A stretch of DNA of 27,467 bases from the IMG/VR virus record IMGVR_UViG_3300008114_001782, positions 1-27,467 of that record. One strand, given 5' to 3'. The stretch is from a virus. Numbering within the stretch: position 1 is the first letter of the stretch; every line of letters begins with the position of its first letter. The notes under the pieces were generated by a model. The model was not told the DNA's origin, did no database searches, and saw only the letters and a program-made list of their open reading frames with translations. The position numbers and the translations under genes were made by a program. Below are positions 2,530-21,088 of the stretch, piece by piece.

Positions 2530-2551
2530 TTGAGTCTCCTGTTAGTTTTTG

Positions 2552-3862: not shown

Positions 3863-4246
3863 TTAGCAATTCCACTTTCTTAAAGATAATGCTTTTCTTG
3901 TTGGACGACCTTTTTCATCCTTCATAGGACCTGGCATGCCACCCATACGAGCGCAAAAAGATTTACGGCGATTCGCTGCTTTAGAACCTGGTTTTAGTTT
4001 TGATGGTGGTGTAGTCACAGCCATCGATAGTTTTGAACCTGGATTTTCACGGCGATATGATTCAATACCTTTACGATTTAAACCACCTTCAGGATTTTTT
4101 CCTTCTTTACGTTGCCAAGCAGGCGATGCTTCATCAAGTTCGACTTCTTCTTTTACACAGGAACCTGGTGAATAAGGTTTTTTACCAGGCACAAGTTTAT
4201 GACCTGGCCAGCATCTTTCTTCTAAAAAACTTTTAAACGATTTCAT
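3863..4246 (-). CDS. Small basic protein with capsid-targeting-like leader
   Basis: A 127-aa protein beginning MKSFKSFLEE, close to the T4 internal-protein capsid targeting form (MKTYQEFIAE from memory), with L-E-E at 8-10 as a possible processing site. A Cys-containing segment follows (Cys12 and Cys30, with GKKPYSPGSC), then EEVELDE (33-39) before Ala-Ser. The rest (41-127) is a basic domain with GKNPEGGLNRKG, NPGSKL and SFCARMGGMPG and a terminal Cys127. I recognise this domain as recurrent in phage proteins (possibly the DUF6321 family; name from memory, function unknown). The ATG overlaps the stop of the 917-aa gene (ATGA), implying coupled translation. If cut at both sites, an 88-residue basic domain would be released; its charge would suit DNA contact inside the head. 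That last step is inference. Confidence 0.72.
   Translation of the reverse strand: MKSFKSFLEERCWPGHKLVPGKKPYSPGSCVKEEVELDEASPAWQRKEGKNPEGGLNRKGIESYRRENPGSKLSMAVTTPPSKLKPGSKAANRRKSFCARMGGMPGPMKDEKGRPTRKALSLRKWNC
4130..4150 (-). repeat. EEVE-type motif unit (EEVELDE)
   Basis: Encodes residues 33-39 of the 127-aa protein, followed by Ala-Ser. L-D-E before Ala is one of the best matches in the window to the T4 prohead protease rule, and it separates the Cys-rich N-terminus from the basic domain. Confidence 0.65.
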
Positions 4247-6996
4247 CCTATTGGCCTTTTTGATTTGAATGTTGTTAAATTAATACCTTTTCTTTTTAAC
4301 TCACCTTCTTTTTGATCGCCAATTGAAGATGTTGTTTCATCACCGGTCATTTCTACTGTAGTAACTTTATGGGATCTCTTTTTAATTTTTTCACCCATGT
4401 CTCTACCAATACTTTCACCAGCTCCTGCCATTGATACACCTGGTTCAATACCACGATCTATTTCGTTGATTTGTTCTTCTGACCAGGTTTTCTGCCTCTG
4501 CCTGATTTCTGAGAGTGTGATTTTTGTTCTTGTTTCTTTGGCGCCGGCTTCTTGGATGCTGGTGCTTTCTTTTCTTTCTTCGGTGCCTCTTGAACTGGTT
4601 GTTCCTGAACCGGTGCTTCCACTGGTGCTGAGTACTGTTCCACTCTCTGTGAGAAGTCCTGGTTTGGAGCTGTCGATGCTCCCTCTAACCCGTGTCTGTT
4701 TGGATTCTTCAATCCAATTCCGAATAGTTCCTTTAAAGCTTTTAACATCTTCAATCTCCTCTTTTAGTTTAATTACATAACCATTTTTATGTTTCAAAAC
4801 GGTACCTTGTTTAGTGTGTGCTTCTTTTGCTGCAGCAGAACGCAACATGAAAACTCTAACTCTACCCTGTTTATCTTTTAATAAATTATGTTGACTTTCA
4901 TCAAGCATATCTTGAACCATATCATTAGTGATCGTGGTGTTTTCCATTTTTTCACCAAAAGGTTGCATAAATTTGCCTAGTGTTACTGCATCACTCTTTG
5001 AATCTGATAACGCATACGATTCTTCATAAGTCACTTCATTATTATTAAATGTGTTAAAGAAATCTTTTACTTCATCAACTGTATCACCTGTAATTGAAAC
5101 GGTTACAGCTTCAGATAGTTTACCTTTACCGAAGTTTGATACGTTTACTGGTTTGCCACCTTTACCACCTCTGTCTGCAACAGGGTCGTGTTTACGTTTC
5201 GCAGCAACTGCTGATGCTCTTTCTTTCTTACTTAACTTAGCACGCTTTTCATTTGACATACATTTTGGTTTTGGTTCACCAGGTTCACGAGCGCAAGGAC
5301 CAATTGCTTCACCTTTGCTATTAATTCTTTTCCATCCACCCTCTGGATGTTTTGGATCAAACCACTTACGTAAATCTTCTGAAATGAAATTTTCAAATTC
5401 TGTATCGATAGTCATATCTTCTTTAAATATCTTATTAAACTCAGAATCTTTTTTCTTCAATGATGTACTTGGTGATGATCCTGGTGTTGGTAATTTTGGT
5501 TGTTCAGGTTGTTTATCTGTAACTGCAACTAATTTATCATGCACTGATCTATGTGTTGTCTTGCCATTTTTACCATAACGACCAAATCCATAATATTGTA
5601 ATCCTAATCTTTTTGCTTCTTCAGCAGCATTAGAACCATGTGGTGCAACTTTTTCAACACCATCTTTTGGTGGTTTTAAAGTGTCTTTTTGTTGCAATTC
5701 ATTTGCTACCCACTCTTGTGCAGCAGGAGATTGTGGAGGCTGTGCAACAAACTCTTTAACATTTTTAAAGAGTTGCATCATTTCCATTTTCTTTTGTTTT
5801 ACAACTTCAGGTGGTGCTTCACGCAAATCTTCAGAGTTATCAAACTCCATATATTGATCAGCAAATAATTTAGCATATTCTGTACGTGCGTTTTGTACAT
5901 TATCCCATTTTTCTTTACGAATAGTTTCAGGTACAGTTCTACCACCTCTTTGACCACGTTCAATATTTCTTTGTGCAGATACTTCATCATTTGTGTTGAC
6001 AAGAATCATTGAAGTATCATAACCCAATTCTTCTAGTTTAGATTTAATTTTTTTTACTTTTTCAGTATCGTCACCTGTACCATTGATGATTAGTCCGTTT
6101 CTACCCTGTAATGCTAATCTCTGACGCAATTCAGTTACAGACTTTGCTCTACCTCTTACAATATCTCTCGCTTCAGTTTCATTTTCAGGCATTCTTTTAT
6201 CAAGACCTTCTTTGTCCATCAAAAATTCTAACGCCTTATCAGAATTAATTTCAGTTAGGCCATGACCATCTAATGTGTTACTTAAAACATAGTCTTTACC
6301 TGAACCTGGACCGCCTGCTAAAAATACTGCTTTAAAAATACTTTGATCATGAACTCCTTCAACAAGAAGTTCTTCGAATTCTTCATTAATACTTTCTTTG
6401 ATGTTCATACCTTTACGTACATCATTATACATATCTTTTACATAATCGATTGACATTTTTGATGGTGCGCCTTTTTTAAAAGTTTTGAAGTCGCCTTTTG
6501 CGGCTGCATCACGCATCTTTGATGCAGAGATACCTTCTACACCTTCCGAATCTGGATCACGTTCACCAGCAGATTCTACACCAATATATTTGAAATTAAA
6601 TCTAGCACCTTTATGTGTACCATTATATTTGTTAAGTAATTTTACATATTCGAGAGCGCGATCAGAACCCGCGACCATATGCAGGTGTGTTACACCTTGT
6701 TTGTATAGTTTCTCCGCATAATCAAAAAACGTGGGAGATTCACTAGATGCGGCTACAAATTTGGTATCAGGAAATGCACGTTTAGCGTGTTTCATTTTCT
6801 GTTGCACTGTAAGGGGATTTTTCTTTGTATCCTGAGAATGAGACAGGACGATATGATGTGAACCACCAAATTGCTTGGCGATTTTTTTGACTTCTTTGAC
6901 TACTTTTTCATGACCGTTTGTAATCGGATTCATTCTTCCGAAAGCCATGACAGCGTGCTTTTCTTTCTGTTCTAATAGAAAGTCTTTAAATTTCAT
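4243..6996 (-). CDS. Multidomain cytidylyltransferase-like / P-loop kinase protein with capsid-targeting-like leader
   Basis: A 917-aa protein. It begins MKFKDFLLEQ, a capsid-targeting-like leader with L-L-E at 7-9. Residues 14-190 form an HxGH-superfamily nucleotidyltransferase (AFGRMNPITNGHEKV with NGH at 27-29; ISASKMRDAAAKGD at 156-169). Residues 220-390 form a P-loop kinase, Zeta-toxin or polynucleotide-kinase-like (Walker A GGPGSGKD at 228-235). Further modules: 455-490 with YYGFGRYGKNGK; a Cys-containing basic domain 540-620 (GGWKRINSKGEAIGPC, DPVADRGGKGGKP); 630-750 with RVRVFMLRSAAAKEAH; a Ser/Thr-rich stretch 765-825; and a C-terminal segment 835-917. Possible (L/I)-x-E sites fall between modules at 211-213, 538-540, 627-629 and 698-700. 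GGAGAG is the ribosome binding site and a TATAAATA late promoter lies upstream. A head-packaged polyprotein is inferred. Codon use in 765-825 is unusual because another ORF overlaps there. Confidence 0.75.
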   Translation of the reverse strand: MKFKDFLLEQKEKHAVMAFGRMNPITNGHEKVVKEVKKIAKQFGGSHHIVLSHSQDTKKNPLTVQQKMKHAKRAFPDTKFVAASSESPTFFDYAEKLYKQGVTHLHMVAGSDRALEYVKLLNKYNGTHKGARFNFKYIGVESAGERDPDSEGVEGISASKMRDAAAKGDFKTFKKGAPSKMSIDYVKDMYNDVRKGMNIKESINEEFEELLVEGVHDQSIFKAVFLAGGPGSGKDYVLSNTLDGHGLTEINSDKALEFLMDKEGLDKRMPENETEARDIVRGRAKSVTELRQRLALQGRNGLIINGTGDDTEKVKKIKSKLEELGYDTSMILVNTNDEVSAQRNIERGQRGGRTVPETIRKEKWDNVQNARTEYAKLFADQYMEFDNSEDLREAPPEVVKQKKMEMMQLFKNVKEFVAQPPQSPAAQEWVANELQQKDTLKPPKDGVEKVAPHGSNAAEEAKRLGLQYYGFGRYGKNGKTTHRSVHDKLVAVTDKQPEQPKLPTPGSSPSTSLKKKDSEFNKIFKEDMTIDTEFENFISEDLRKWFDPKHPEGGWKRINSKGEAIGPCAREPGEPKPKCMSNEKRAKLSKKERASAVAAKRKHDPVADRGGKGGKPVNVSNFGKGKLSEAVTVSITGDTVDEVKDFFNTFNNNEVTYEESYALSDSKSDAVTLGKFMQPFGEKMENTTITNDMVQDMLDESQHNLLKDKQGRVRVFMLRSAAAKEAHTKQGTVLKHKNGYVIKLKEEIEDVKSFKGTIRNWIEESKQTRVRGSIDSSKPGLLTESGTVLSTSGSTGSGTTSSRGTEERKESTSIQEAGAKETRTKITLSEIRQRQKTWSEEQINEIDRGIEPGVSMAGAGESIGRDMGEKIKKRSHKVTTVEMTGDETTSSIGDQKEGELKRKGINLTTFKSKRPIG
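4458..4748 (-). CDS. Overprinted small basic protein inside the 917-aa gene
   Basis: A 96-aa ORF in the +1 frame of the 917-aa gene. It starts with ATG at 4748, preceded at 7 nt by GGAG (4756-4759) in the context AGAGGAG; a TTG six bases upstream is an alternative start. The N-terminus MLKALKELFGIGLKNPNRHG reads like a short amphipathic helix, followed by a Pro/Ala/Gln/Lys-rich low-complexity tail (APVEAPVQEQPVQEAPKK, then KKPAPKKQEQK) ending GRGRKPGQKNKSTK. Codons in this frame resemble the rest of the phage (GCA, CCA, GAA, CAA, AAA), whereas the main frame over the same DNA is rich in AGC, ACC, ATC and GCC and codes for an uninformative Ser/Thr stretch. This argues that the small ORF is really used. 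Function unknown; the tail suggests nucleic-acid binding. Confidence 0.5.
   Translation of the reverse strand: MLKALKELFGIGLKNPNRHGLEGASTAPNQDFSQRVEQYSAPVEAPVQEQPVQEAPKKEKKAPASKKPAPKKQEQKSHSQKSGRGRKPGQKNKSTK
4756..4759 (-). promoter_or_regulatory. Ribosome binding site of the overprinted ORF
   Basis: GGAG within AGAGGAG on the minus strand, 7 nt before the ATG at 4748. It is encoded by the Lys-Glu-Glu-Ile codons of the main frame and is as strong as the sites used by undisputed genes of this phage. Confidence 0.5.
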
Positions 6997-8157: not shown

Positions 8158-8875
8158 TTATTTTATCCATTTCTACATAAGCACCCTTTGGTGTGTGCAT
8201 TAATGTTTTGTTTATATTAAATTCTTTCCAGTTAATTCCTATATTTCTTATATGTTGTTCAGTTATTACATGAGGACATAATAAATTTGTTTGTGCATAC
8301 AATTCTGAAATAAAACAAATTACTTTCGTAAAGAACATCATCTGTCCTACACTACCAACTTGCATTAGGTCACCTGTTCCTTGACCTAAATGATTTCTGT
8401 GTGCAATCGTATAAAATGTTCCCATTTCAAACTCAGGAAGATCCTCATGAAATACCATGTCAGGCCGCATACGAATCACCAAATCATAATTACCCTGTAA
8501 CTGTGCCATATGTTTTTCAACCAAAGAAAATCCTTGATGCATCTTATAATACATTGATAGTATATTCTTAGGTCTATGTGCAAAATTTTTGAAATAGGTT
8601 CCACAATGTTCGAAGTGTTTGTTGAAATCGTTCCAATATTCTTTTACAAAGTATAAAGGCTTGTAAGCATCAATAACATCTTGATCTACTATTTCTGGAG
8701 TACCTTCAAAGAAACCTTTTTCATTTTGTTTATCACCTGGAATCCACCAACCTTCTTCATCCCATGTATGAATAAAAATATCAGGGTTATACCGATCAAT
8801 AATTTTTTCTTTAAAATTTGGAAATACTTGTTTCCAACATCTCAAATGTCCTGTTAATACGACAGCGACTCTCAT
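8147..8875 (-). CDS. Glycosyltransferase-like protein (GHLR...RMRPD family)
   Basis: A 242-aa protein beginning MRVAVVLTGHLR, with PDIFIHTWDEEGWW (31-44), a central YKMHQGFSLV and DLVIRMRPDM (131-140). This set (GHLR start, D-I-F-I-H-T-W, R-x-R-P-D) is typical of a glycosyltransferase-like family seen in bacteria, viruses and phages next to sugar genes; the family name is not recalled with certainty. The RxRPD segment occupies the place of the DxD metal site in GT-A enzymes. Its ATG overlaps the stop of the HAD-nucleotidyltransferase gene (ATGA). Likely role: transfer of a sugar onto a phage or host glycan. Donor and acceptor unknown. Confidence 0.6.
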   Translation of the reverse strand: MRVAVVLTGHLRCWKQVFPNFKEKIIDRYNPDIFIHTWDEEGWWIPGDKQNEKGFFEGTPEIVDQDVIDAYKPLYFVKEYWNDFNKHFEHCGTYFKNFAHRPKNILSMYYKMHQGFSLVEKHMAQLQGNYDLVIRMRPDMVFHEDLPEFEMGTFYTIAHRNHLGQGTGDLMQVGSVGQMMFFTKVICFISELYAQTNLLCPHVITEQHIRNIGINWKEFNINKTLMHTPKGAYVEMDKINAE

Positions 8876-10248
8876 TCTTTATAGTTCTCCAAAAAGTAAT
8901 TTAAATCTTCTGGTGTTCCTATTCCCCACATTCTTTCAATGTGTTTAGTTCTGATTTTCTTACCATCACCAATCGCTTCGTTGAATACAGGACAAACATA
9001 GAATTCATTATTGACACGAATGTTCTTCTGTATCATTTGTTCAGCATACTTAACATAATCTTTACCATGTTTCCAATAGTAAATACCCACAGTAGCAATA
9101 TTTGAGATAGGTTTCTTTTCTGCAACTTCAGATACAAATCCATTCTCATCTAATTTTGCAAATGACCATTTTGGATGGGTGGCTTCAAATGTGACAATAC
9201 CACCATCAATACTGTCAGCACCAAATGCATACAAACACTCGTTAGAATTCCACTCTACAAATTGATCTGAGTTGGCCATCAATAGTGGTTCATCATTATC
9301 AATCAATTCTTTCGCTAGTAATGTTGTACATGCAGCACCTTCAGTAATACCATCAACTTGAACAATATCACAACCAGGCGCAATTAAATTTAATAGTTGT
9401 TTGAGGTTATACTTTTCATAATGTTCTTTCTGAACTAGAAAAATAAAATGAGCATCAACATTCAGATTTTCAACAACAACTTGAATCATTGGCTTCCCAC
9501 GAACTTCAATCAGAGGTTTAGGAAAAGTGTAACCTGCTGCAGCGAATCTACTACCAGCACCAGCCATAGGTATCAATACATTCATTTTTTTATTTCTCCA
9601 TGGTATATTTGTTTTCTTGACACCATTTAGTATATCAATAGCATCTTGTATTTTATCACTTGTTAAATCGAAAGAATCTTTTAAAGGTATTAGATGAGCA
9701 CCAGAATTTAAAGCACCTTCTCGACCAATATGACTATCTTCAAATATAACTGTTGTTTTTGGTAATGCATTTAAAACTGTCATACATTGCCAGTACATTT
9801 CTGGATAAGGCTTAGGTCTCCTTACATCTTCATTACTGACATAGTAATCAACATATTCTAACACACCTATTGATATTAAAGCAAGCTTTACTGTCTCACG
9901 AATGGAGTTACTTGCAACAGCAATTTTAAATCCTTGCTTTTTTAATTCACTGAAATATCGTATTAAGTTAAGACTTTTTGGAAATTGTTTAATTAATTCG
10001 AATGTGGCAGTTTGTTTATCTTGCCAAACTTGATCGTAAACGCTTGTTGGTAGACCTTTTCTTTCGGTCAACATCTCTAGTTTTCTTGTTGTGTTTAAGC
10101 CATCAAAAACACTTAAGTGTTCTTCACGCTGAATTACAAATTCTTCGCCGACTTTTAACAATGCATCGTTTAATGCATGATAGTGCAATTCTCTTGATTC
10201 GATCAATACTCCATCTAAATCGAATATAATTAATTTATTTCGCATCAC
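8872..10248 (-). CDS. HAD phosphatase fused to sugar-phosphate nucleotidyltransferase
   Basis: A 458-aa two-domain protein. Residues 1-210 are a HAD hydrolase of the beta-phosphoglucomutase/Gph type: DxD nucleophile at Asp10 and Asp12 (FDLDGVLIES), VASNSIRET (111-119), Lys146 in RRPKPYPEM, and VIFEDSHIGREGA (167-179). Residues 222-458 are a GT-A nucleotidyltransferase: MNVLIPMAGAGSRF (222-235) with PKPLIEVRGKPMI (243-255), then NSDQFVEW and a C-terminal GIGTPEDL. The first domain could dephosphorylate or isomerise a sugar phosphate and the second could make an NDP-sugar for the neighbouring transferases. The join contains a good internal ribosome binding site before Met222, so the second domain may also be made alone. 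Start is GTG at 10248 or ATG at 10245, both after AAGG. Confidence 0.8.
   Translation of the reverse strand: MMRNKLIIFDLDGVLIESRELHYHALNDALLKVGEEFVIQREEHLSVFDGLNTTRKLEMLTERKGLPTSVYDQVWQDKQTATFELIKQFPKSLNLIRYFSELKKQGFKIAVASNSIRETVKLALISIGVLEYVDYYVSNEDVRRPKPYPEMYWQCMTVLNALPKTTVIFEDSHIGREGALNSGAHLIPLKDSFDLTSDKIQDAIDILNGVKKTNIPWRNKKMNVLIPMAGAGSRFAAAGYTFPKPLIEVRGKPMIQVVVENLNVDAHFIFLVQKEHYEKYNLKQLLNLIAPGCDIVQVDGITEGAACTTLLAKELIDNDEPLLMANSDQFVEWNSNECLYAFGADSIDGGIVTFEATHPKWSFAKLDENGFVSEVAEKKPISNIATVGIYYWKHGKDYVKYAEQMIQKNIRVNNEFYVCPVFNEAIGDGKKIRTKHIERMWGIGTPEDLNYFLENYKE
9596..9599 (-). promoter_or_regulatory. Internal ribosome binding site in the fusion gene
   Basis: GGAG in the context GGAGAAATAAAAAAATG on the minus strand, 10 nt before the in-frame ATG at 9585 that begins the nucleotidyltransferase domain. 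GGAGAAATAAA is also the leader of the genes starting at 47 and 16825, so this looks like a retained gene start inside a fused ORF. Confidence 0.5.
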
Positions 10249-10858
10249 GATGTACCTTATTATGTCTTACTATACTTTTTCCGTTACAAACATATCTGTA
10301 TCTATGTCTTATTCTCAACGACCATTCAACATCATCTGATTGACCCCATCCAAGTTCTTCATTGAAAGGATTATCAATAACTAATTGTGTTTTAGCTACA
10401 GTAAATCCTCCAGATTGGTACATATAATGTACATGACTCCAATCATCATAATGCACTGAAGTATATGTCGGAAAGATAGGAGAATCCCAAGTAACCCAAT
10501 CGGTAAAATGTCTCTTACCATTAATTAAATATTGAGAACAAGAACAAATATCCCAGTTATTACCGAATTTCAAAAAATTATTATACCAATCTTTGTCGAA
10601 AACAAAGTAATCATGCATCAAAACAATATTTTGATAATTGGCGGCTCGTGCTAAAAGATTTTTCTTTCTTGTTATCCACCCAGGCCTTACACTATCTTCA
10701 AACCAAATATATCTTTCTTTTTCAGCACCTTCTCTTTTTTGTTCGCCAATCACAAGAACTTGATAATTAGGAATATTCAGTGCATGTATCGAATCTATAA
10801 CTTCTCTCAGTTGAGTTTCATTATCATATTTCGTAAGTATACCAAATGTAAAATCCAT
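10235..10858 (-). CDS. GT-A glycosyltransferase, family 2-like
   Basis: A 207-aa protein beginning DFTFGILTKYDNETQL, the usual opening strand of a GT2-type nucleotide-binding domain. MHDYFVFDKDW (81-91) sits where GT-A enzymes carry the metal-binding DxD, here in the HDY variant. A QSGGFTVAK segment follows (148-156), then GWGQSDDVEWSLR (170-182), matching the W-G-x-E-D-x-E acceptor and catalytic-base region of galactosyltransferase-like GT2/GT7 enzymes. It is short for the family but both key regions are present. The ribosome binding site is GAGG 8 nt upstream; the start overlaps the stop of the GT4 gene by one base and the end overlaps the fusion gene by 14 nt. Confidence 0.7.
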   Translation of the reverse strand: MDFTFGILTKYDNETQLREVIDSIHALNIPNYQVLVIGEQKREGAEKERYIWFEDSVRPGWITRKKNLLARAANYQNIVLMHDYFVFDKDWYNNFLKFGNNWDICSCSQYLINGKRHFTDWVTWDSPIFPTYTSVHYDDWSHVHYMYQSGGFTVAKTQLVIDNPFNEELGWGQSDDVEWSLRIRHRYRYVCNGKSIVRHNKVHRDAK

Positions 10859-12663: not shown

Positions 12664-13539
12664 TTATATATTTTTTACGTATTTCTTAAACCTCTGAACT
12701 TTTTGTCCTGGTGTATCTTCTATATATCTACGTGTAAGTTCTGGTCTACCCCATTCACCGGCACCGGCCTTAGATACAAATTCTTGTTCTTCATTTATAC
12801 CGCCGATTCTTTCTACTGAGCCGTCTGGTTTCGCAAAATATGCCTCAAACTTTACATCTGTAAAATCTTTTTTCAAACGCAAAAATTCTTTTAGGTTCGC
12901 CATACTATCATCGAATAAACGAACATGGGAGAATTTACCTTGTTTTAAATAATTATATATTATAACATACTTAGCATGTGCAGGCGACAGCTTTGATAAT
13001 TTACCAGCGCGTTCGACTCTTATCTTGTCTATATCTAAACCATATTGTCTAAATGTATCCAAAAATGTTTCTTTGTCATCAAAGTCATTACGTGCAGTCA
13101 AAATAATCATCTGACTACCCGGTTTATTTACAACATTACGGAGTATTGCTTTTGCCTTAGCAAACATTTTGGCAATAGGCTTTGATTCTTCTTTAAACTT
13201 TTTTGCATCACGAAATTGGCGATAATCAAATTCTTCACCTTTCTTTAATTGATAGGTATTAAATTCTTGATTATTTAATTCACGAACAACTTTACCATCT
13301 TTCTTCACAGCAATCTTTGCAGTCGTATGAAAGAGTGTATCATCAATATCGAATATAGTTAAACCAGAACCAGACTTCGTAAAATCTTTTTGTTCATTCA
13401 TCGACTTGAACATTTGAATTCTTGATTCTTGTTTCCTAACCCATTCGTCAGAAGGTTTACCCTCACCTCTGTAATAAGCAAGTGGTCTCTGTGTTTTTTT
13501 AGAAACTAAAGCCCACTTACCATCTACTTGTTTTAACAT
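12664..13539 (-). CDS. HAD-superfamily phosphatase
   Basis: A 291-aa protein. The N-terminal 50 residues contain GKWALVSKKTQRPLAYY and PSDEWVRKQESRI, a segment I recall from other phage proteins. The HAD domain follows: IFDIDDTLFHT with the nucleophile and acid/base Asp two residues apart (near residues 64-66 from the ATG), MIILTARNDF (motif II, Thr), a Lys-rich region, and LFDDSMANLKEF (motif III/IV). This pattern is close to phage HAD phosphatases and the 3'-phosphatase part of T4 polynucleotide kinase; substrate unknown. The ATG at 13539 overlaps the iscU stop (TGATG); a TTG one codon upstream is less likely. If it acts with the kinase and ligase-like proteins nearby, end repair is conceivable, but it lacks the capsid-targeting-like leader. 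Confidence 0.75.
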   Translation of the reverse strand: MLKQVDGKWALVSKKTQRPLAYYRGEGKPSDEWVRKQESRIQMFKSMNEQKDFTKSGSGLTIFDIDDTLFHTTAKIAVKKDGKVVRELNNQEFNTYQLKKGEEFDYRQFRDAKKFKEESKPIAKMFAKAKAILRNVVNKPGSQMIILTARNDFDDKETFLDTFRQYGLDIDKIRVERAGKLSKLSPAHAKYVIIYNYLKQGKFSHVRLFDDSMANLKEFLRLKKDFTDVKFEAYFAKPDGSVERIGGINEEQEFVSKAGAGEWGRPELTRRYIEDTPGQKVQRFKKYVKNI

Positions 13540-13928
13540 CAAGCTGCCTTTGCTAAATTTTTATCTTTATAATCTTTTATAGCTGCTTTGATTGCATCTT
13601 CCGCCAGAATCGAACAATGAATTTTGACTGGTGGTAATGCAAGTTCCTCAGCAATTTGGGTATTCTTGATCGCCATCGCTTCATCAATTGTCTTGCCTTT
13701 AACCCACTCGGTGACAAGCGACGACGATGCAATCGCCGAGCCACAACCATACGTCTTAAATTTCGCATCAGTAATTACTCCGTCATCAACTTTAATTTGC
13801 AACTTTAAAACGTCACCGCAAGCTGGCGCACCAACTAATCCTGTACCAACAGTCGTGTCACTTGTATCTAACTTTCCTACGTTTCGTGGATTCTCATAGT
13901 GATCCATCAATTGACTAGAATAAGCCAT
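13539..13928 (-). CDS. iscU: Iron-sulfur cluster scaffold protein IscU
   Basis: A 129-aa full-length IscU. All functional residues are present: Cys37 and Asp39 in GAPACGD, Cys62 in YGCGSAIASSS, and His104-Cys105 in HCSILAEDA; the LPPVK chaperone-recognition motif (98-102) is intact. IscU assembles Fe-S clusters with cysteine desulfurase IscS and hands them on with HscA/HscB; none of those partners is in the window, so it would work with the host machinery. The sequence is nearly collinear with the E. coli protein as I remember it, with one residue deleted near position 49, and is of the beta/gammaproteobacterial type. It has more GCG and TCG codons than its neighbours, suggesting fairly recent acquisition from a host. 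It lies 2 nt after the 40-aa membrane peptide gene. Confidence 0.95.
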   Translation of the reverse strand: MAYSSQLMDHYENPRNVGKLDTSDTTVGTGLVGAPACGDVLKLQIKVDDGVITDAKFKTYGCGSAIASSSLVTEWVKGKTIDEAMAIKNTQIAEELALPPVKIHCSILAEDAIKAAIKDYKDKNLAKAA

Positions 13929-14064: not shown

Positions 14065-14337
14065 TTATCCTCTTGTTAGTTTTAAAATCTTTTGTATTTG
14101 ATCCTCAACTAATTTTTTTCTATTTGGCCAATATATGTATTCTTTATCTGCGGTCTGCAACAACTTAGTAAAAAAAGGTAATACTAATTTTTCCACTTGT
14201 TGAAGTCTTGCCTGAAATTCTTCAGCAGTATCAGCCTTCTCATTTATAACTGCGTTATATTCTTCTTCAGATACAGCAGAGAAACCAAAATCATCATCAC
14301 CGTATTCCTGTAATATTTTATTTAAATCGTATGCCAT
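14065..14337 (-). CDS. Conserved phage protein of unknown function (90 aa)
   Basis: A 90-aa acidic N-terminus (DDDFGFSAVSEEEYNAV) followed by a predicted helical region (about 35-90) with a coiled-coil-like pattern, AEEFQARLQQVEKLVLPFF, and YIYWPNRKKLVEDQI near the end. From memory this type, with YW(P)NR near its C-terminus, occurs next to virion or maturation genes of aquatic T4-like phages. GGAG within the last codons of the ligase-like gene lies 6 nt before its ATG, and the start overlaps that gene's stop (TAATG), so the two are coupled. No enzyme motif is seen. Confidence 0.65.
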   Translation of the reverse strand: MAYDLNKILQEYGDDDFGFSAVSEEEYNAVINEKADTAEEFQARLQQVEKLVLPFFTKLLQTADKEYIYWPNRKKLVEDQIQKILKLTRG

Positions 14338-15569
14338 TATTTACTCCAATTTTTTGCAGCATTAAAGTTCTGTTGAGAAAATTCTAGTCTATCAATTAAC
14401 TTTAATGCACCACCACTTAATCTATCTACTGCAACAAAACCTTCAGGTCCAGTAACTTTAAAACCATCTTCAGTATTTACAAAAGTGTTCACTGAAGATT
14501 TTATACTTTCAAGTTTTCTTACTATCATTATCTTTGCATCTACAATTAGATTCATTAGATCAAATATTGCTGCAAGCTGTGACGCACTACTTCTATAAAA
14601 TCTTATCAATTCAGATTTTTCTGCGATTCGTTTTTTCTTTGTATCTTCTTTTTTCGCAGCAAGTATTTCTTTGTTTAGTCTATCTTCTACCCAACGAATT
14701 AATTCTGTTACATGTTTTTGTGTATTGGTTATCTTTTGACCAGCTCTAACTTTTGTATTATTGAATGTTTTGATTTGCGTATTTAAAACATCTGAAGATG
14801 ATATTCTATTTAGAATCAAAGGATTGATTGTTTGAAATATTCTACCCGCTTGAGATAAAACACCTGTAATCATTTTTGTTTCTGTCTCAGTGAATGTTGC
14901 AGTGCCTGAAGCATCAACAAATGAAGCATCTCTAAACCAAACATCTTTGGTCTGTTTTAAATTGCCTATATCAATATTGAAAGAAGCTTTCAATGTGTCC
15001 ATAGTTCTACCGGAATATGATGTATGAAAGACGATACCCATTTGAGCTGCTGACATTTTCGAAGCCATAACTGAATCAGTAGGCACAGCATAAACGATTG
15101 TATTGGGTTGAAACGTAATATATGATTCACCATCTATACTTTGACTTTGTATATCGCCTTTAGAGAATAACATATCACCTTGCAATATACCTTTTATTTC
15201 CAACTTAGGTAAAAATGCTAACGCTGTTTTTAATTTTTGATTTAGACCTTCGCCAGGATGATTCTTGTCAATGTCATCATCAGTATAATTTAATTTTCCA
15301 TCTTTATTAAAAACAGACTTGGTGCCGACAAAAAACTTTCCGTTTTCTGGATTAATACCACAAATTACAGCAGGAGCTCCATCCCATTTTGTAGTTACAT
15401 TTACTTTTGATTGAGAATGTCCAGCTAACATATCACGTAATGAGCGAAGAAAATCGATAGACTCTCTCGCACCTTTTACTCCACGATTTAAGATATTATC
15501 TTCTAAATGTTCTAAGTGAAGGTTAGCTCCTTCTTTCTTAGATTCGGTTAAATATTCTGAGAATTTCAT
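14337..15569 (-). CDS. Ligase-like covalent nucleotidyltransferase candidate with capsid-targeting-like leader
   Basis: A 410-aa protein beginning MKFSEYLTES, a capsid-targeting-like leader with L-T-E at 7-9. TTKWDGAPAV (59-68) holds K61-x-D-G64, motif I of ATP-dependent DNA/RNA ligases and capping enzymes. GILQGDMLF (127-135) could be motif III, MGIVFHTSY (177-185) motif IIIa, PEGFVAV (375-381) motif IV and ALKLIDR (388-394) motif V; order and residues fit, but a long helical insert (about 230-365) separates IIIa from IV, which is unusual. I recall this protein as a phage family of unknown function (possibly DUF6267). Ligase or adenylyltransferase activity is inference. The start overlaps the stop of the 419-aa gene and no clear ribosome binding site is present, so translation is probably coupled. 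Confidence 0.65.
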   Translation of the reverse strand: MKFSEYLTESKKEGANLHLEHLEDNILNRGVKGARESIDFLRSLRDMLAGHSQSKVNVTTKWDGAPAVICGINPENGKFFVGTKSVFNKDGKLNYTDDDIDKNHPGEGLNQKLKTALAFLPKLEIKGILQGDMLFSKGDIQSQSIDGESYITFQPNTIVYAVPTDSVMASKMSAAQMGIVFHTSYSGRTMDTLKASFNIDIGNLKQTKDVWFRDASFVDASGTATFTETETKMITGVLSQAGRIFQTINPLILNRISSSDVLNTQIKTFNNTKVRAGQKITNTQKHVTELIRWVEDRLNKEILAAKKEDTKKKRIAEKSELIRFYRSSASQLAAIFDLMNLIVDAKIMIVRKLESIKSSVNTFVNTEDGFKVTGPEGFVAVDRLSGGALKLIDRLEFSQQNFNAAKNWSK

Positions 15570-16825
15570 TTTGCGATTACAAACCTTCCAGATTTCTCGG
15601 TTCTACTTGAAGTATATTCTAAAAATTTTTGCACGACCTTTTCATTTAACTTTGTTTTTTTTGTATCATCTTCATTTGATTTAAACCAATTATAAATTAC
15701 AGGCATAATAGCATTTGAAACATATAATGCACTTAGAATTGCTCTTTCTTCATCATACATTTCTTTTGCCGGACTTTGTAATTTAACTCCAGGTTTAACT
15801 TTAAATTTTTTATTGGCTTTTTCTAACTCTGTTGCATATTTTCTTATACCTGCCTCAAAAGCTCTTTTCAATTCATCACCAAAACTTTTATCAACTTTAG
15901 AAATCAATTGAGCAATTAAAGGTATACCAACAACAGAACCCCCACGACCACCAGCTCCAGTAACTTCAATTTCACATTTTACAGCTTTGTTAACTCCATA
16001 ATTTGAACTATAAGGATCGTGACGAATTTTTAATTTATCTTTTTTGTCTTTACTAAAATAAATTTTAATGTCCCGAGTAACAGGTTTTGCTCTTGTAAAT
16101 TTTTTACTCCAATCACTTACTCCATAATATTTTATGGAACCAAGATATGTTTCTTCATCAGACCTTTTAAAATTTACTTTAACTAAATGTGCTTCATTTG
16201 AAGCCTTTTTTAATGATAAAGGTAATAAATCACCACTATCTACTAATTTTGAAGTTAATGTATTTAAATCTGTAAAATTATATGACTTTGATAGTTTTCC
16301 TTCTGCAAGAGTTACTGTTTTTAAGATTTCACTCTCGGCTTTTTTAGATACAAAATATATGTCTGCTGGACTCCATTTGTTTATGTCACCAAAATATGAT
16401 TTTTCGTTTTTATTGGCAATATCAAATAATGCTCCTATATTTTCCATAGCGTTTGCATTACGACCCTTTTCTTTAGCGCCGCCACGAACATAAATTATAT
16501 CTTGTAATCTTGGTGCTTTTATTTTAGAAAATTTAGAACTAATTGTTGTTATTTCAGCCATTAATTCGCGAGCAATATTTAAAGAAGATTCATACCAACC
16601 ATCTGCATCAATTAAAAATTTTTCTATTTGTTGTAAAGTAATTTGTGGCATATCTGTGGCTTTGTATGCCTCATCAATTATTTTACCGTAATGTTTTTTG
16701 AAAACTTGATAAGAAGGTAATTTCTTAGTAAGAAATTCGTTTTTTACCTTTGTGGCTCCAATTAAATCAGCAATAGCACAAAATAGTGCTTGTGCCGCTT
16801 CTCCTTCTTTTGGTGAATCTGCCAT
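15566..16825 (-). CDS. PD-(D/E)XK-like protein of unknown function (419 aa)
   Basis: A 419-aa protein with no signal or membrane segment. The N-terminal helix GEAAQALFCAIADL (8-21), then NKWSPADIYFV (149-159, Asp155) and DLLPLSLKKAS (199-209, Ser204-Leu-Lys206) follow the order of a PD-(D/E)XK nuclease core: helix Glu, strand Asp, then SxK. The 400-aa protein two genes upstream has the same arrangement. A Gly-rich GAGGRGG (292-298) and a basic C-terminal region follow. I do not recognise a named family; a nuclease fold is inference and a structural role is possible. CGGAGAAATAA is the ribosome binding site, and AATAAATA (16847-16854) lies just upstream. The start lies within the end of the 92-aa ORF. 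Confidence 0.6.
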   Translation of the reverse strand: MADSPKEGEAAQALFCAIADLIGATKVKNEFLTKKLPSYQVFKKHYGKIIDEAYKATDMPQITLQQIEKFLIDADGWYESSLNIARELMAEITTISSKFSKIKAPRLQDIIYVRGGAKEKGRNANAMENIGALFDIANKNEKSYFGDINKWSPADIYFVSKKAESEILKTVTLAEGKLSKSYNFTDLNTLTSKLVDSGDLLPLSLKKASNEAHLVKVNFKRSDEETYLGSIKYYGVSDWSKKFTRAKPVTRDIKIYFSKDKKDKLKIRHDPYSSNYGVNKAVKCEIEVTGAGGRGGSVVGIPLIAQLISKVDKSFGDELKRAFEAGIRKYATELEKANKKFKVKPGVKLQSPAKEMYDEERAILSALYVSNAIMPVIYNWFKSNEDDTKKTKLNEKVVQKFLEYTSSRTEKSGRFVIAK

Positions 16826-17045
16826 TTATTTCTCCGTATAATTTTATATTTATTCTACCACAATTATCGATCCATTGTTTATTGATAGCCGGATATAAAG
16901 ATACCAGTTCATGATATTTTTTATCTTTTACTATATCTTCAGGATTTCTATAATTTATATTATCATTTAAAGCTCGCCTGAAAATCCATGCAGAACCAAG
17001 TTCTTGCATCCTAGTAAGTTCTGCTGCAGAATAATTTTTAGCCAT
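16767..17045 (-). CDS. Small protein of unknown function (92 aa)
   Basis: A 92-aa ORF; residues 1-62 look genuine (SAAELTRMQELGSAWIFRRA, NPEDIVKDKKYHELVSLYP), with helix-rich composition and a form I recall from small proteins in related phages. The last 30 residues run through the ribosome binding site and the first 59 nt of the 419-aa gene and are atypical (TKRRRSGTSTILCYC). The natural C-terminus may therefore have been extended by loss of an earlier stop. AGGA about 8 nt before the ATG, and the start overlapping the 400-aa gene's stop (TAATG), support translation. Function unknown. Confidence 0.55.
   Translation of the reverse strand: MAKNYSAAELTRMQELGSAWIFRRALNDNINYRNPEDIVKDKKYHELVSLYPAINKQWIDNCGRINIKLYGEINGRFTKRRRSGTSTILCYC
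16847..16854 (-). promoter_or_regulatory. Possible late-promoter-like box AATAAATA
   Basis: Minus-strand AATAAATA about 22 nt before the start of the 419-aa gene, fitting NATAAATA. It lies within the 3' end of the 92-aa ORF. The motif is frequent in AT-rich DNA, so this one is weak. Confidence 0.3.
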
Positions 17046-18247
17046 TAAGGTTGTCCTAAAATTTTCATAGAAGTTAAAGGTCCATTATTATGTTTGACCT
17101 GTATACCAAACATCCTTTTACCATCAGCATGAACACTCATTAATGTTCCACCACTTTTATGAATCTCTAATTTTTTGGAATCTTTTATAGAATGATACAT
17201 TTCATTGTCAGATGGATCTTCTGTATGAGCAGTTGCATCTTTATCATAACCTCCTGTGCCATGTGTCTTAACATAAGGCAGTGCATGATCGGAATTTGCT
17301 TTAACAAAAGTTCTTAGTAAATGACTTTTTAAATTCTCATGCGACATTGATTGATAATGTTCATGTAGTTTATCACGAACACTACCGTTAACTTTTGTTG
17401 CGTGAGCCATTGCTTCATCATACTTCTTACTATTTCTATATGATGCAGTTCCTTTTTTACCTGCTACATCTGCTGCGCCAGCAGAAAGATTTTTATATCC
17501 TTTTTTCTTTAAAAACTGGTTTTGCAATTTATTAGCATGTGTTTCTAAATCTATACCTAAATCTTTACCAACTGAGCCTAATCCACCGTTATGAAATCCT
17601 ATTTTCTTAGCTGATGAGGACTTTAAAGATACACCAAAATATCCGTGCTTAGCATCTTTAGGTTTATTTTGAAAATGTGCTACAACATCAGAAGGGTTCT
17701 CTTGTTGAGTTGCAGGTATGCCTGTATGTTTTTCTATGTCGCCAGGTTTTGCTGTTAGATGTACATTTTTTATACCAGAATATCCATTTGATTTTGCATG
17801 TTCTAAGAAAGATTTTGCCTGAGCAGCTGCTCTATCATTTTGTCTACGAGCTTCTAATGGATCATGATTGTCCAACATTTCTTTATGATGATATGCAGCC
17901 TTCTTATGTTCATCATCAATCCAACTTGTATTGTTTAAATGATATGCAAACATCGCTTCATTGAATCCACCTCTGTGAGTATTGATGGCTGCAGCAGAAG
18001 ATTCTTCTAGATATTCTTCTTTTACTGTAGATTTACCTGATCCATGAATTTCGTTATGATGTTTTAAATGATAGGTTATTTCATCGGGTTCCATACCAAT
18101 GAAAGTATGAGATACCTCACCATATTTGTTTTTAAGATGGTGTACGTCACCTTTTCTATGTAAGGTGTATTTTCCTTTGGCAGGATGTTCAAATTCTTGA
18201 ACTTTTTTTCCTGTAGATTCAGTCAGAAAAGAAGATAGTGTTTTCAA
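17045..18247 (-). CDS. PD-(D/E)XK-like protein with capsid-targeting-like leader (400 aa)
   Basis: A 400-aa protein beginning MKTLSSFLTES, nearly the T4 internal-protein leader, with L-T-E at 8-10 before Ser. Residues 11-70 form a small His-rich domain; KEEYLEES (77-84) resembles the acidic linker motif of the structural proteins, and the main domain follows. This has FNEAMFAYHLN (95-105, Glu97), PSDVVAHF (185-192, Asp187) and YFGVSLKSSSAKK (203-215, Ser207-Leu-Lys209), in the order of a PD-(D/E)XK nuclease core, then GFHNGG and a C-terminal domain with YVKTHGTGG. A packaged nuclease is inferred; no family name is claimed. Start is TTG with GGGAG about 8 nt upstream; GATAAATA (18273-18280) suggests late expression. 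Confidence 0.65.
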   Translation of the reverse strand: MKTLSSFLTESTGKKVQEFEHPAKGKYTLHRKGDVHHLKNKYGEVSHTFIGMEPDEITYHLKHHNEIHGSGKSTVKEEYLEESSAAAINTHRGGFNEAMFAYHLNNTSWIDDEHKKAAYHHKEMLDNHDPLEARRQNDRAAAQAKSFLEHAKSNGYSGIKNVHLTAKPGDIEKHTGIPATQQENPSDVVAHFQNKPKDAKHGYFGVSLKSSSAKKIGFHNGGLGSVGKDLGIDLETHANKLQNQFLKKKGYKNLSAGAADVAGKKGTASYRNSKKYDEAMAHATKVNGSVRDKLHEHYQSMSHENLKSHLLRTFVKANSDHALPYVKTHGTGGYDKDATAHTEDPSDNEMYHSIKDSKKLEIHKSGGTLMSVHADGKRMFGIQVKHNNGPLTSMKILGQP

Positions 18248-18280: not shown

Positions 18281-19396
18281 CTATCTAATAATGTCAATCT
18301 CTTTTTCGCCTGTCCAGACCTCTATTTCTGATCTAAGTCTATTCTCCGTCTTTAGTGTTTCAAAACGATTAACGGCTTTCTTTCTCCACCACTCAATAAC
18401 ATTCTTTAGATGAAACTTTTCGTAGTTTTCACCCGCAACCAGTTTAGTTGTTTTTCCATTAACATAGTCAACCATATTACTGAATCCATAATCAGATACA
18501 TAATATCGTTTCTGCTCGTTTAGATTCTTCGCATTTTCAATCGTTCGTTTAAACTTCTCACCTTCTGGTGTACCTCTCAGTATGACATTGATGTGTGACA
18601 CCATGGCATTTGATATCTTCAACTTTCTACTTGATGCGCCTTCTGGTGCCAGCGGTTCTCCAAGTATATTTTCCATATACTCTTTTAAATTTGTATAAGT
18701 TTCACCGTGTAACATAGGAAGAAAATCACTATCAGTTAAACCTTTGTATCGAATATAAGGTTTCATACCATCATATTGCGATACTGCTTTTGTTGAACCA
18801 TATAAACTTGTTGTCTCAAATAAACAAGTTGTCATATCATATTTCTTATTCAGCATTTCACGAACTTCATGTGTCGTACATATTGCAGCCATCAATTTAC
18901 CACCAAGATAATTGTAACCAAATGGCTGTGCTGGCACAATAACGAAACCCATAATAGCACAACGATTAAACATCTGTGCGCCACCATCAATTTGTGTGAA
19001 TACTTGTCCAAGCATTTCATTTCTCGGTTTACAGTTAATCACCGGAGAACCAAGGCGAATAAAACCAACCCACTTATTTGTTTTCTTTTCCAAAACAGCG
19101 AGTCTCAAACAACGACCAGGTATGCTAGTCATATTTGAGTGTGAAGAAATCATATTCAAATAAATGTCCCATCTTTCTTGTGGTAATTCCATTACTTCGA
19201 ATTCCATATCAGCAGGCGACATATTGAAGTTCGTAAACAAATCTTCTTCAGGTCCCATGCCAGGCAAAACAAATGGCCTTTCGGCCATTGAATTTAATTT
19301 CTGTTCTCTCATGTACTCATCAATTCTACTGAATCGATCAAAGTAGTTCGAGAAAACACTCGCACAATAGACGGCTTGTTCTTTAGTCAAACTCAT
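18281..19396 (-). CDS. DruA/DUF4338-like protein
   Basis: A 371-aa protein. The central part (about 90-230) matches from memory the pattern of DUF4338, the family of Druantia protein DruA: PGRCLRLAV (93-101), WVGFIRLGSP (109-118), AIMGFVIVPAQPFGYNYLGG (147-166), then CLFETTSLYGSTKAVSQYDG (191-210) with Glu194 and IRYKGLTDSDFLP (215-227). Before it is a segment with LPGMGPEEDLFTNFNMSPAD (44-63). Phage-borne members lack the rest of the Druantia system, as here, so a defence role is not implied. Its start overlaps the helicase stop (ATGA), placing it in the replication operon. A DNA-metabolic role is suggested by position only. Confidence 0.6.
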   Translation of the reverse strand: MSLTKEQAVYCASVFSNYFDRFSRIDEYMREQKLNSMAERPFVLPGMGPEEDLFTNFNMSPADMEFEVMELPQERWDIYLNMISSHSNMTSIPGRCLRLAVLEKKTNKWVGFIRLGSPVINCKPRNEMLGQVFTQIDGGAQMFNRCAIMGFVIVPAQPFGYNYLGGKLMAAICTTHEVREMLNKKYDMTTCLFETTSLYGSTKAVSQYDGMKPYIRYKGLTDSDFLPMLHGETYTNLKEYMENILGEPLAPEGASSRKLKISNAMVSHINVILRGTPEGEKFKRTIENAKNLNEQKRYYVSDYGFSNMVDYVNGKTTKLVAGENYEKFHLKNVIEWWRKKAVNRFETLKTENRLRSEIEVWTGEKEIDIIR

Positions 19397-20799
19397 ACTT
19401 TTAAACCACCAAAGTTTTTATTAAATTTACTTTCACGATTACCAAACGTGTTTAATGGAGGACTATCATCAGTTTGTCCCGAATCTGCGATACCATTTTG
19501 TGCATCAGGTTCAGCATCATATAATTTCATCTTCGATCTATCAATACCAATCACAAATCGTTTGAATGAATTAGGATCACCATAACGATTTTTTAATTGC
19601 TTCACCATAATTTGATTCAATTGTTCTAGTTCTTCAGTACTGATAAGTGCAAACATAAAGTCAGCAGTTGCAGGCAAACCAAAAGATTCGGAAGTATCTT
19701 CAAGACCAGGATCAGTATTTGTAAAACCAGAACGAGTTGTTTGTGTAGCAGAAACAATTGGTACAGCAAACTCAACAGCAAGACCTCTTAGTTCTTCAGC
19801 AATTGCTTTAATGTATGCATAACTGTTTACATTCGCACCAGGTTTAATTCTAGATGAAGCGCAGATGTTAAGATAATCAATAAAGACAATATCAGGTTTA
19901 AAACTCTTTTTCAAATGAAGTTCGTTCAACAAAGCTCTGAAGTGTAACGATGATGCAGCTGCCGTTGGATATTCTTTGATAATTAACTTACCATTCAGTT
20001 TAGTTTTCAGATGGTTGAACTTTCTTTCATAATCATCTTTTGTCATAGTCTTTAGTTCATCCATACTGACATTCAAAAGGTTTGCATCAATACGTTCAGC
20101 AATCTTTTCTTCAGCCATTTCAAGTGTAATGTACAATACGTTCTTACCTTGCGATAGACAAGAAGCTGCAACGTGACACATGAACAAGGATTTACCAACA
20201 CCAGTGCCAGCAAGTGCAATGTTGAGAGTTTTAATTGGTAGACCGCCTTTAGTGATCTTATTGAATAGGTCTAAATCAAAAGGAATTTTAGTTTCTTGTT
20301 TGTGATAAAAGTCATAACGAGCATCGAAATCATTTACATAATCATGACCAATGTGATTATCAAAAGAAACACCAAGAGCGTCACTCAAAAGTTTTGGTAT
20401 TTCACCTTTAGATTTATTATCTTCACCATTCTTATCAAGAATAGAAACAGAACTCATGATTGCATTATAGATGGCTTTATCTTGACAAAACTTTTCAGTC
20501 TGGTCGATCAACCAATCCATTTCAGACTTTTCGTTTCTATCACTGTTCAATTCTCTAAGCAAATCGACACAACCATTCACTTCGAGTTGTGTCAATTTTT
20601 TAGATTCGGTGAAATCAATTAATAGAGATTCGTATGTTGGAAGATTCTTGTATTCTTCAACATATGTTTTTATTTCTCTGAAAAATTTACGTTGATTATT
20701 TTCAGAAAAATATTCTTCTCTAATGAATGGCAATACTTTTCTTGTATAGTCCTCATTGAAAATCAAGTTCTTCAGAATGACGTTTTCTAGTTGTTTCAA
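19393..20799 (-). CDS. 41: Replicative DNA helicase, T4 gp41/DnaB type
   Basis: About 468 aa. The N-terminal domain starts KQLENVILKNLIFNEDY, aligning from memory with the T4 gp41 start (VEIILSHLIFDQAY). The RecA-like helicase domain has Walker A ALAGTGVGKSLF, VLYITLEMAEEKIAERI (H1a/H2 region of DnaB), Walker B PDIVFIDYLNIC and a strand ending IVSATQTTRSG (motif H3). It unwinds DNA as a hexamer at the fork with the gp43 polymerase of this operon. TTG at 20799 is chosen: GAGG is 9 nt upstream and this matches the family N-terminus. TTG at 20814 would add five residues. The start lies inside the preceding small ORF, so translation is coupled. Confidence 0.92.
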   Translation of the reverse strand: MKQLENVILKNLIFNEDYTRKVLPFIREEYFSENNQRKFFREIKTYVEEYKNLPTYESLLIDFTESKKLTQLEVNGCVDLLRELNSDRNEKSEMDWLIDQTEKFCQDKAIYNAIMSSVSILDKNGEDNKSKGEIPKLLSDALGVSFDNHIGHDYVNDFDARYDFYHKQETKIPFDLDLFNKITKGGLPIKTLNIALAGTGVGKSLFMCHVAASCLSQGKNVLYITLEMAEEKIAERIDANLLNVSMDELKTMTKDDYERKFNHLKTKLNGKLIIKEYPTAAASSLHFRALLNELHLKKSFKPDIVFIDYLNICASSRIKPGANVNSYAYIKAIAEELRGLAVEFAVPIVSATQTTRSGFTNTDPGLEDTSESFGLPATADFMFALISTEELEQLNQIMVKQLKNRYGDPNSFKRFVIGIDRSKMKLYDAEPDAQNGIADSGQTDDSPPLNTFGNRESKFNKNFGGLKV

Positions 20800-21088
20800 G
20801 TTTTTTTGCCTCAATTAAAATATAGTCTTGGAGTATGTCACCTAGTATTGTAACAAATTCTTGATTATCTGTCAAGTGTTCCTCGGCAAAATTCGCATAT
20901 TCAATCACATGGTAATTGAATTTTAACCTCGCAAAACCCTCATCCTCAAAGAATTGGGTTTGCGAGTAGGTGACAGTTACATTTTGATATTTACCACTGA
21001 GTATGGTAAAATAGGTATTCTCATCCCTAATGTCGATGAAATATTCAGGCCGCTTCGTCTGGTTGAAATTCAGGAGATTCAACATCAT
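20753..21088 (-). CDS. Small protein between uvsX and helicase (gp40 position)
   Basis: About 111 aa from the tandem ATG at 21088. The body (RPEYFIDIRDENTYFTIL, then YSQTQFFEDEGFARLKFNY) is beta-rich and soluble; the C-terminal 25 residues are charged and helical. In T4 the gene between uvsX and 41 is 40 (head vertex initiator); the position matches, but I see no convincing sequence likeness. The start is uncertain: GGGAG (21089-21093) abuts the ATG pair and suits a TTG at 21082 best, while ATG at 21118 would add a hydrophobic N-terminus (MKLLIAAFWE). The gene overlaps uvsX at its start and the helicase at its end, unusually deep overlaps on both sides. Confidence 0.65.
   Translation of the reverse strand: MMLNLLNFNQTKRPEYFIDIRDENTYFTILSGKYQNVTVTYSQTQFFEDEGFARLKFNYHVIEYANFAEEHLTDNQEFVTILGDILQDYILIEAKKLETTRKRHSEELDFQ

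Follow-up and report, generated by a model that had tools for sequence, protein, structure and literature searches.

We analysed a 27,467-base record of a T4-like phage (IMG/VR IMGVR_UViG_3300008114_001782, positions 1 to 27,467; hereafter, the window), in which genes for a DNA polymerase, a UvsX-like recombinase and a primase-helicase lie at 19393-25479. Our subject is the gene at 14337-15569, which, like all the window genes of interest, is on the minus strand (Table 1). A previous sequence-only reading had described a leader-bearing protein with ligase or capping-enzyme motifs here, and had delimited the gene correctly. The open reading frame (ORF) matches the Pfam family PF19782 (DUF6267) with an E-value of 2.1e-113 over model positions 1-376 of 376, and the PHROG 455 profile with an E-value of 1.7e-111. 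Both are database families of unknown function.

Homologues were found in 468 annotated phage records, chiefly of Synechococcus and Prochlorococcus phages, and further ones in phages named after Methylophilales, Pelagibacter, Vibrio, Stenotrophomonas and Pseudoalteromonas; among the matches listed, nearly all the products are named hypothetical. DUF6267 is present in about 98% of T4-like cyanophages (368 Synechococcus-named records, compared with 376 that have a T4-type polymerase match) and in 61 of the 61 records named 'Cyanophage'. It corresponds to T4-GC 71 in the published T4-like gene clusters. In the literature searched we found no mention of DUF6267 by name, and the family has never before been given a function. 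Matches in bacterial assemblies were not counted as cellular homologues, since most of them are contigs of metagenome-assembled genomes and possibly derive from phages.

Conserved motifs and predicted fold of DUF6267

The four motifs on which the sequence-only reading was built, KWDG, GILQGDMLF, PEGFVAV and ALKLIDR, are all found where it had placed them, and the motif III acid, the motif IV E-G and the motif V lysine occur in the order that is typical of the superfamily of covalent nucleotidyltransferases. To assess conservation we used a 324-row alignment, comprising 323 full-length homologues and one truncated or mis-started ORF. K61, D63, G64, P66, K84, Q130, D132, E376, G377, V379, K390 and R394 were identical wherever the residue was present; the truncated ORF, which is gapped at most key columns and misaligned at D132, was the sole exception. 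Loss of K61 in homologues had been named as grounds for abandoning the ligase idea, and this lysine is invariant in 323 of the 323 sequences that have a residue there. A smaller alignment of 59 sequences has 34 invariant columns, and the naive chance that K61, D63, G64, D132, E376, G377 and K390 would all fall among them is about 3e-8. Judged from these alignments, conservation of the motifs exceeds chance. The protein stops 20 residues past the motif V lysine K390, without an OB domain, and motifs IV and V are spaced by 14 residues (11 in short forms of the family). A long helical insert had also been described before motif IV. It appears as helices at residues 228-354 of the predicted structure, and natural homologues of about 320 residues (313-326; for example Syn9 gp183, with 320) lack most of it.

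Structures were predicted with AlphaFold2. The full-length protein, modelled on the 59-sequence alignment, gave a predicted local distance difference test score (pLDDT) of 85.6 and a predicted template modelling score (pTM) of 0.80. Because the insert dominates the full-length Foldseek query, we also folded the short form Syn9 gp183, using 61 sequences (pLDDT 89.0, pTM 0.84), and compared it with a library of 350,542 PDB chains. Ranks 1-31 were all covalent nucleotidyltransferases, with a best E-value of 0.044 and TM-scores of about 0.2. The top neighbour was the fungal tRNA ligase Trl1. Among the 31 were further enzymes of the RNA side (Naegleria RNA ligase, bacterial Rnl and the trypanosome RNA-editing ligase) as well as human DNA ligases I, III and IV, archaeal DNA ligases, LigA and the capping enzyme PCE1. 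PDB sequence searches with the protein and its profile returned only coiled-coil-type matches to the helical insert.

As far as the model goes, 31 of 31 top neighbours from one superfamily is not a chance ranking, and DUF6267 is very probably a remote member of the covalent nucleotidyltransferases. Since no single fold E-value is below 0.04, we place it on a new, very remote branch of that superfamily. The earlier proposal of an unrecognised ligase-like family is supported: the predicted fold is not unrelated to nucleotidyltransferases, the search with the short form points only to them, and no function had been assigned before. It is improbable that the motif series is convergent and the fold unrelated. 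Such an origin would agree with the lack of any significant sequence or structure match to a ligase, but it would leave unexplained both the uniform ranking and the fact that motifs named beforehand from sequence fall among the invariant residues.

Relation to known ligases and ligase content of the phage genomes

The PF01068, PF09511 and PF09414 profiles recognised no DUF6267 member among the matches listed for 61 members. As regards LigA, the Ia, OB, HhH and BRCT domains are absent from the DUF6267 protein, and PF01653 is absent from 12 DUF6267 genomes. With hhalign, T4 Rnl1 aligned with DUF6267 over motifs IV-V only, at a score that 0 of 100 column-shuffled profiles reached (E-value 0.012 for one pair), whereas the comparisons with T4 Rnl2 and T4 gp30 stayed at noise level.

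The likeness to Rnl1 (PF09511) and Trl1 lies in the motif order K-x-D-G, EG-[YF]-V and motif V lysine, Rnl1 being the only profile to score above shuffles. Unlike both, DUF6267 has D for E in motif III and a helical insert of about 125 residues between motifs IIIa and IV; unlike Rnl1, it is not recognised by PF09511 and lacks the C-terminal tRNA domain. RLIG1 (C12orf29) is similar in being a minimal core without an OB domain, with a K-x-D motif I and a motif IV-V spacing of 13 residues (E240 to K253), compared with 11-14 in DUF6267 (PMC11494293). It differs in lacking the helical insert, and the tools applied here detected no similarity between the two sequences; the DUF6267 family is confined, as far as searched, to T4-like and related phages. 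By this comparison, the architecture of DUF6267 resembles RNA ligases (Rnl1, RLIG1) more closely than DNA ligases. To our knowledge, all known ATP-dependent DNA ligases append an OB domain.

One possible reading, which we hold tentatively, is that DUF6267 is an RNA ligase that would mend RNA, tRNA included, after its cleavage by defence nucleases of the host, together with the kinase and HAD phosphatase domains encoded nearby. The missing OB domain, the tRNA and RNA ligases among the top fold matches and the Rnl1 profile score all speak for it, as do a HAD phosphatase (PHROG 415, labelled polynucleotide kinase) located 1.3 kb away in 54 of 80 clade loci and a P-loop kinase encoded in the window. 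However, the HAD neighbour is almost never near DUF6267 in other clades, the P-loop kinase is nearer to zeta and nucleoside-monophosphate kinases than to polynucleotide kinase, and RNA repair genes are usually sporadic, whereas DUF6267 is nearly universal.

The ligase content of the genomes was examined in two sets. In the first, 12 of 12 DUF6267 genomes lacked PF01068, PF09414, PF09511 and PF01653; T4, in contrast, matches the first three of these families and carries no DUF6267. In the second, 9 of 11 lacked PF01068 and none matched either RNA-ligase family; here PF09511 matched nothing, controls included, although the model did detect T4 Rnl1 in the first set. Over both sets, no DNA ligase could be recognised in 21 of the 23 DUF6267 genomes. 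Cyanomyoviruses retain the replisome of T4 without a recognised DNA ligase and mostly without RNase H (PMC2984593). A 2010 review, noting that homologues of gene 30 were not found in them, asked whether distant ligase homologues had escaped notice or the ligase of the host takes over (PMC2984593). These same phages almost universally carry DUF6267, an unassigned gene with a predicted ligase-type core, and the question of the missing ligase becomes testable.

DUF6267 might be the ligase that seals DNA nicks in T4-like cyanophages and their relatives, acting in the role of gp30 with the insert clamping DNA in place of an OB domain. We consider this slightly less likely than the RNA reading. The absence of gene 30 homologues, the near-universal occurrence of DUF6267, its position beside uvsX, gp41 and gp43 in several clades and its complementarity with PF01068 ligases in 21 of 23 genomes are in its favour, and gp30-type ligases are also fold neighbours at the superfamily level. 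Nevertheless, the protein has no sequence match to gp30 and extends only about 20 residues beyond the motif V lysine, and the host ligase could suffice. Furthermore, Stenotrophomonas phage DLP_6 and S-CRM01 carry both DUF6267 and a PF01068 ligase, so that DUF6267 does not simply stand in for gp30, and the idea of a strict replacement is weakened. Overall, the genome context favours work on DNA and the architecture favours an RNA-ligase-like enzyme.

Leader peptide, probable head packaging and proposed mechanism

The sequence-only reading had also noted a leader and suggested that the protein may be packaged in the head. The leader, MKFSEYLTE, is present, and it occurs in 76 of the 78 full-length DUF6267 genes of the window's own clade; the background is 69 of 2,383 ORFs. 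In homologues it takes the form M-x-F-x-x-[FY]-[LI]-x-E, the other positions varying freely. By the strict pattern it was found in 45 of 76 DUF6267 genes of the Melnitz clade, where many others are near misses, and in none of those of the S-PM2, Syn1 and Syn9 clades. The N-terminus of T4 IPII and IPIII reads MKTYQEFIAE, and in the T4 internal protein leader residues 4 and 7 govern targeting and residues 8 and 10 processing (PMC9026906). Over the N-terminal 9-10 residues, the window protein matches these proteins at positions 4, 7, 8 and 10. It differs from them in a leader shorter by one residue, in a mature part that is a predicted enzyme unrelated to the internal proteins, and in that its packaging is predicted.

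Phage S-CREM2 (OR473000), a relative with a published virion proteome, has 52 of its approximately 221 annotated features detected in the virion (PMC10665884). Scanning its genome with the pattern M-x(1-3)-[FLY]-x-x-[FYM]-[LIFM]-x-E returned exactly five ORFs, namely a SAM hydrolase, an APH/ChoK-like kinase, a cytidylyltransferase, ORF13 and ORF136. All five are on the virion list (chance about 7e-4), whereas the leaderless DUF6267 of the same phage (58914-59762) is not, and for this reason we take the leader of these phages to be a signal for capsid targeting. Virions of S-SM1 likewise contained the cytidylyltransferase cluster T4-GC190 (PMC3037559), and the S-SM1 ORF that follows DUF6267, which is of cytidylyltransferase type, bears the leader. 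T4-GC190 resembles the window protein as a leader-bearing packaged enzyme (PMC3037559, PMC10665884), and a domain related to it is found next to DUF6267 or fused with it; T4-GC190 differs as an HxGH-type nucleotidyltransferase of another fold, and virion presence has been shown by experiment for T4-GC190 only. In the window, the same leader is found on the genes at 3863-4246, 4243-6996 and 17045-18247. By analogy with these relatives, head packaging of the window DUF6267 protein is likely, and for its clade the earlier suggestion is well supported by the leader together with the S-CREM2 virion data. Packaging is not likely in the leaderless cyanophage members.

In Kyanoviridae, the leader pattern seems able to predict head-packaged enzymes in general, and such a rule would be a cheap way to list the enzymes that phages carry into the cell. 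As a separate observation, the Cas9-like nuclease that has been published as virion-associated in S-CREM2 (ORF12, 7704-10313) contains the leader-like sequence RFASFMAEA a short distance behind its annotated start, which suggests that either the start codon is mis-annotated or the signal for head targeting is internal.

On balance, we moderately favour the interpretation that DUF6267 forms a new and very divergent covalent nucleotidyltransferase family, that it is most likely a polynucleotide ligase, and that in this clade it is directed to the head. Conservation, the predicted fold neighbourhood and the observed leader are its basis, and from them we infer activity, substrate and timing. RNA ends are a tentative choice of substrate, only slightly ahead of DNA nicks or breaks; the remaining probability falls to other acceptors or to a wrong superfamily call. 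In the proposed reaction K61 would be nucleotidylated, with AMP from ATP as the default guess; motifs Ia, III, IIIa, IV and V would hold the nucleotide until its transfer to a 5'-phosphate, and attack by a 3'-OH would then close the break. Where known ligases have OB or C-terminal domains, DUF6267 would instead have the helical insert that separates motifs IIIa and IV, and this insert is probably substrate-binding. MKFSEYLTE is predicted to direct the protein into the prohead and to be cut off after E9. Because such a leader would put the protein in the prohead, the packaged enzyme would be delivered into the cell along with the DNA and would act as infection begins, while leaderless cyanophage members would act after expression, beside the replication genes.

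Several results weigh against this interpretation. The Foldseek search of the PDB with the full-length model found nothing significant, with T4 DNA ligase at rank 48, and no individual match of the short-form model was significant. Neither the Pfam nor the NCBIfam ligase models matched any member among the matches listed, and 21 of 100 shuffles did as well as the real profile against Rnl2. In addition, the acidic residue of motif III is D132 instead of the usual E, the lack of an OB domain makes a classical DNA ligase unlikely, two genomes hold a DNA ligase as well, and the S-CREM2 homologue is missing from its virion list. The sealing of genome ends on entry, which had been suggested as a role, was considered and judged unlikely because T4-type genomes are headful-packaged and terminally redundant, without cohesive ends.

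It is unlikely that DUF6267 transfers nucleotides to another acceptor and is injected to change the host, whether as an AMPylator of proteins, an enzyme of capping type or a modifier of metabolites. The superfamily does include capping enzymes, with PCE1 among the fold matches; the packaged leader proteins of relatives (SAM hydrolase, APH/ChoK kinase, cytidylyltransferase) are host-takeover-type enzymes, and T4 Alt is a packaged protein modifier (PMC9026906). However, near-universal presence beside replication genes in leaderless clades fits work on nucleic acids better. Moreover, cellular capping enzymes have an OB domain, unlike DUF6267. If the polynucleotide ligase interpretation is true, the covalent nucleotidyltransferases would gain a family with a new insert domain and possibly a new substrate scope. 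In the sea, T4-like cyanophages and pelagiphages rank among the most abundant viruses, and a probable packaging tag on a predicted sealing enzyme matters because most T4-like cyanophages are thought to be without such an enzyme.

Gene neighbourhood

Table 1. Features of the DUF6267 gene and its surroundings in the window.
Feature	Positions	Strand	Basis or remark
DUF6267 / PHROG 455 protein, 410 residues, predicted covalent nucleotidyltransferase (ligase-like)	14337..15569	minus	Pfam, PHROG, fold search of short-form homologue
Leader MKFSEYLTE, residues 1-9, putative capsid-targeting sequence with gp21-type L-x-E cleavage site	15543..15569	minus	clade pattern and T4 likeness
Motif I, K61-W-D-G-A-P66; K61 is the predicted nucleotidylated lysine	15372..15389	minus	K, D, G, P invariant in 323 homologues
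Motif Ia candidate, FFVGTKSVF, residues 79-87	15309..15335	minus	K84 invariant; assigned from order and spacing
Motif III, GILQGDMLF, residues 127-135	15165..15191	minus	Q130 and D132 invariant; strand at 128-136 in model
Motif IIIa candidate, PNTIVY, residues 155-160	15090..15107	minus	P155, N156, Y160 invariant; putative assignment
Helical insert, residues 228-354; short-form homologues lack most of it	14508..14888	minus	model and homologues
Motif IV, PEGFVAV, residues 375-381	14427..14447	minus	E376 invariant; aligns with T4 Rnl1 IEGYVAV
Motif V, ALKLIDR, residues 388-394	14388..14408	minus	K390 and R394 invariant; alignment
Small gene, 90 residues, overlapping the DUF6267 stop by 1 nucleotide	14065..14337	minus	clade loci; conserved partner in own clade only (77/80)
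Upstream variable-cassette gene, 419 residues, PHROG 1462, overlapping the DUF6267 start by 4 nucleotides; D...SLK pattern	15566..16825	minus	profile and comparison
N-terminal remnant, 92 residues, of a cassette gene intact (373-378 residues) in relatives	16767..17045	minus	comparison
Variable gene, 400 residues, capsid-targeting-like leader (L/M)KTLSSFLTE and SLK motif	17045..18247	minus	sequence
HAD-family phosphatase, weakly like polynucleotide kinase/phosphatase families	12664..13542	minus	PHROG 415, E 1.2e-4; clade-specific neighbour (54/80)
Leader-bearing protein: NMNAT-like nucleotidyltransferase (residues 1-210) and P-loop kinase (about 220-375)	4243..6996	minus	

An NMNAT-like gene adjoins DUF6267 in 66 of 80 Melnitz, 78 of 80 Syn1, 55 of 63 S-PM2 and 35 of 36 Syn9 loci, and in S-PM2 the NMNAT-like domain is fused to DUF6267. 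In the window this domain lies 8 kb from DUF6267 and is joined to a P-loop kinase. A long shot, to which we give little weight, is that DUF6267 is an NAD+-using polynucleotide ligase outside LigA, for which the neighbouring or fused NMNAT-like domain would turn the released nicotinamide mononucleotide back into NAD+ with ATP. Such recycling would explain the adjacency in most clades and the fusion in S-PM2. Where the clade has the leader, both proteins would reach the cell together with the injected genome and make up a self-contained kit for repair. The whole idea is suggested by adjacency, fusion and known NMNAT chemistry.

The gene directly upstream of DUF6267 is hypervariable. In pairs of loci whose DUF6267 proteins are 80-90% identical, 776 of 1,170 had no detectable similarity at that position, while the helicase control never fell below 30%, and the cassette is swapped even between phages with DUF6267 more than 95% identical. 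The window itself, by comparison of sequences, is a case of cassette turnover: the remnant, whose gene is intact in other loci (L006-L011, L017 and others), abuts a different, complete cassette gene with its best match in L029 (83% identity). A D...SLK pattern was present in 124 of 255 upstream genes, compared with 16 of 679 control ORFs, and in 90% of the largest upstream family. This pattern is seen in PD-(D/E)xK nucleases and suggests that the cassette gene may be a nuclease of that type, although family-model searches of the upstream genes gave no support for it. A PADLOC scan of the DUF6267 gene and its neighbours returned no defence-system match. Co-packaging of the upstream nuclease-like gene with DUF6267 was rejected as a general rule, the leader being present in only 7 of 262 upstream ORFs.

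Some further genes were noted. In Pelagibacter phage HTVC008M (locus L356), an ORF at 1962-3086, between the DNA polymerase and UvsX genes, matches Pfam DruA (a Druantia protein; E-value 1.8e-10). Between the HAD phosphatase and DUF6267, the window has at 13539-13928 what appears by eye to be an IscU/NifU-like iron-sulphur scaffold gene, found in 17 of 80 clade loci. Finally, the two proteins encoded at 86-2529 contain repeated EEVEQ(L/I/M)DE-type segments and are perhaps head core or scaffold-like.
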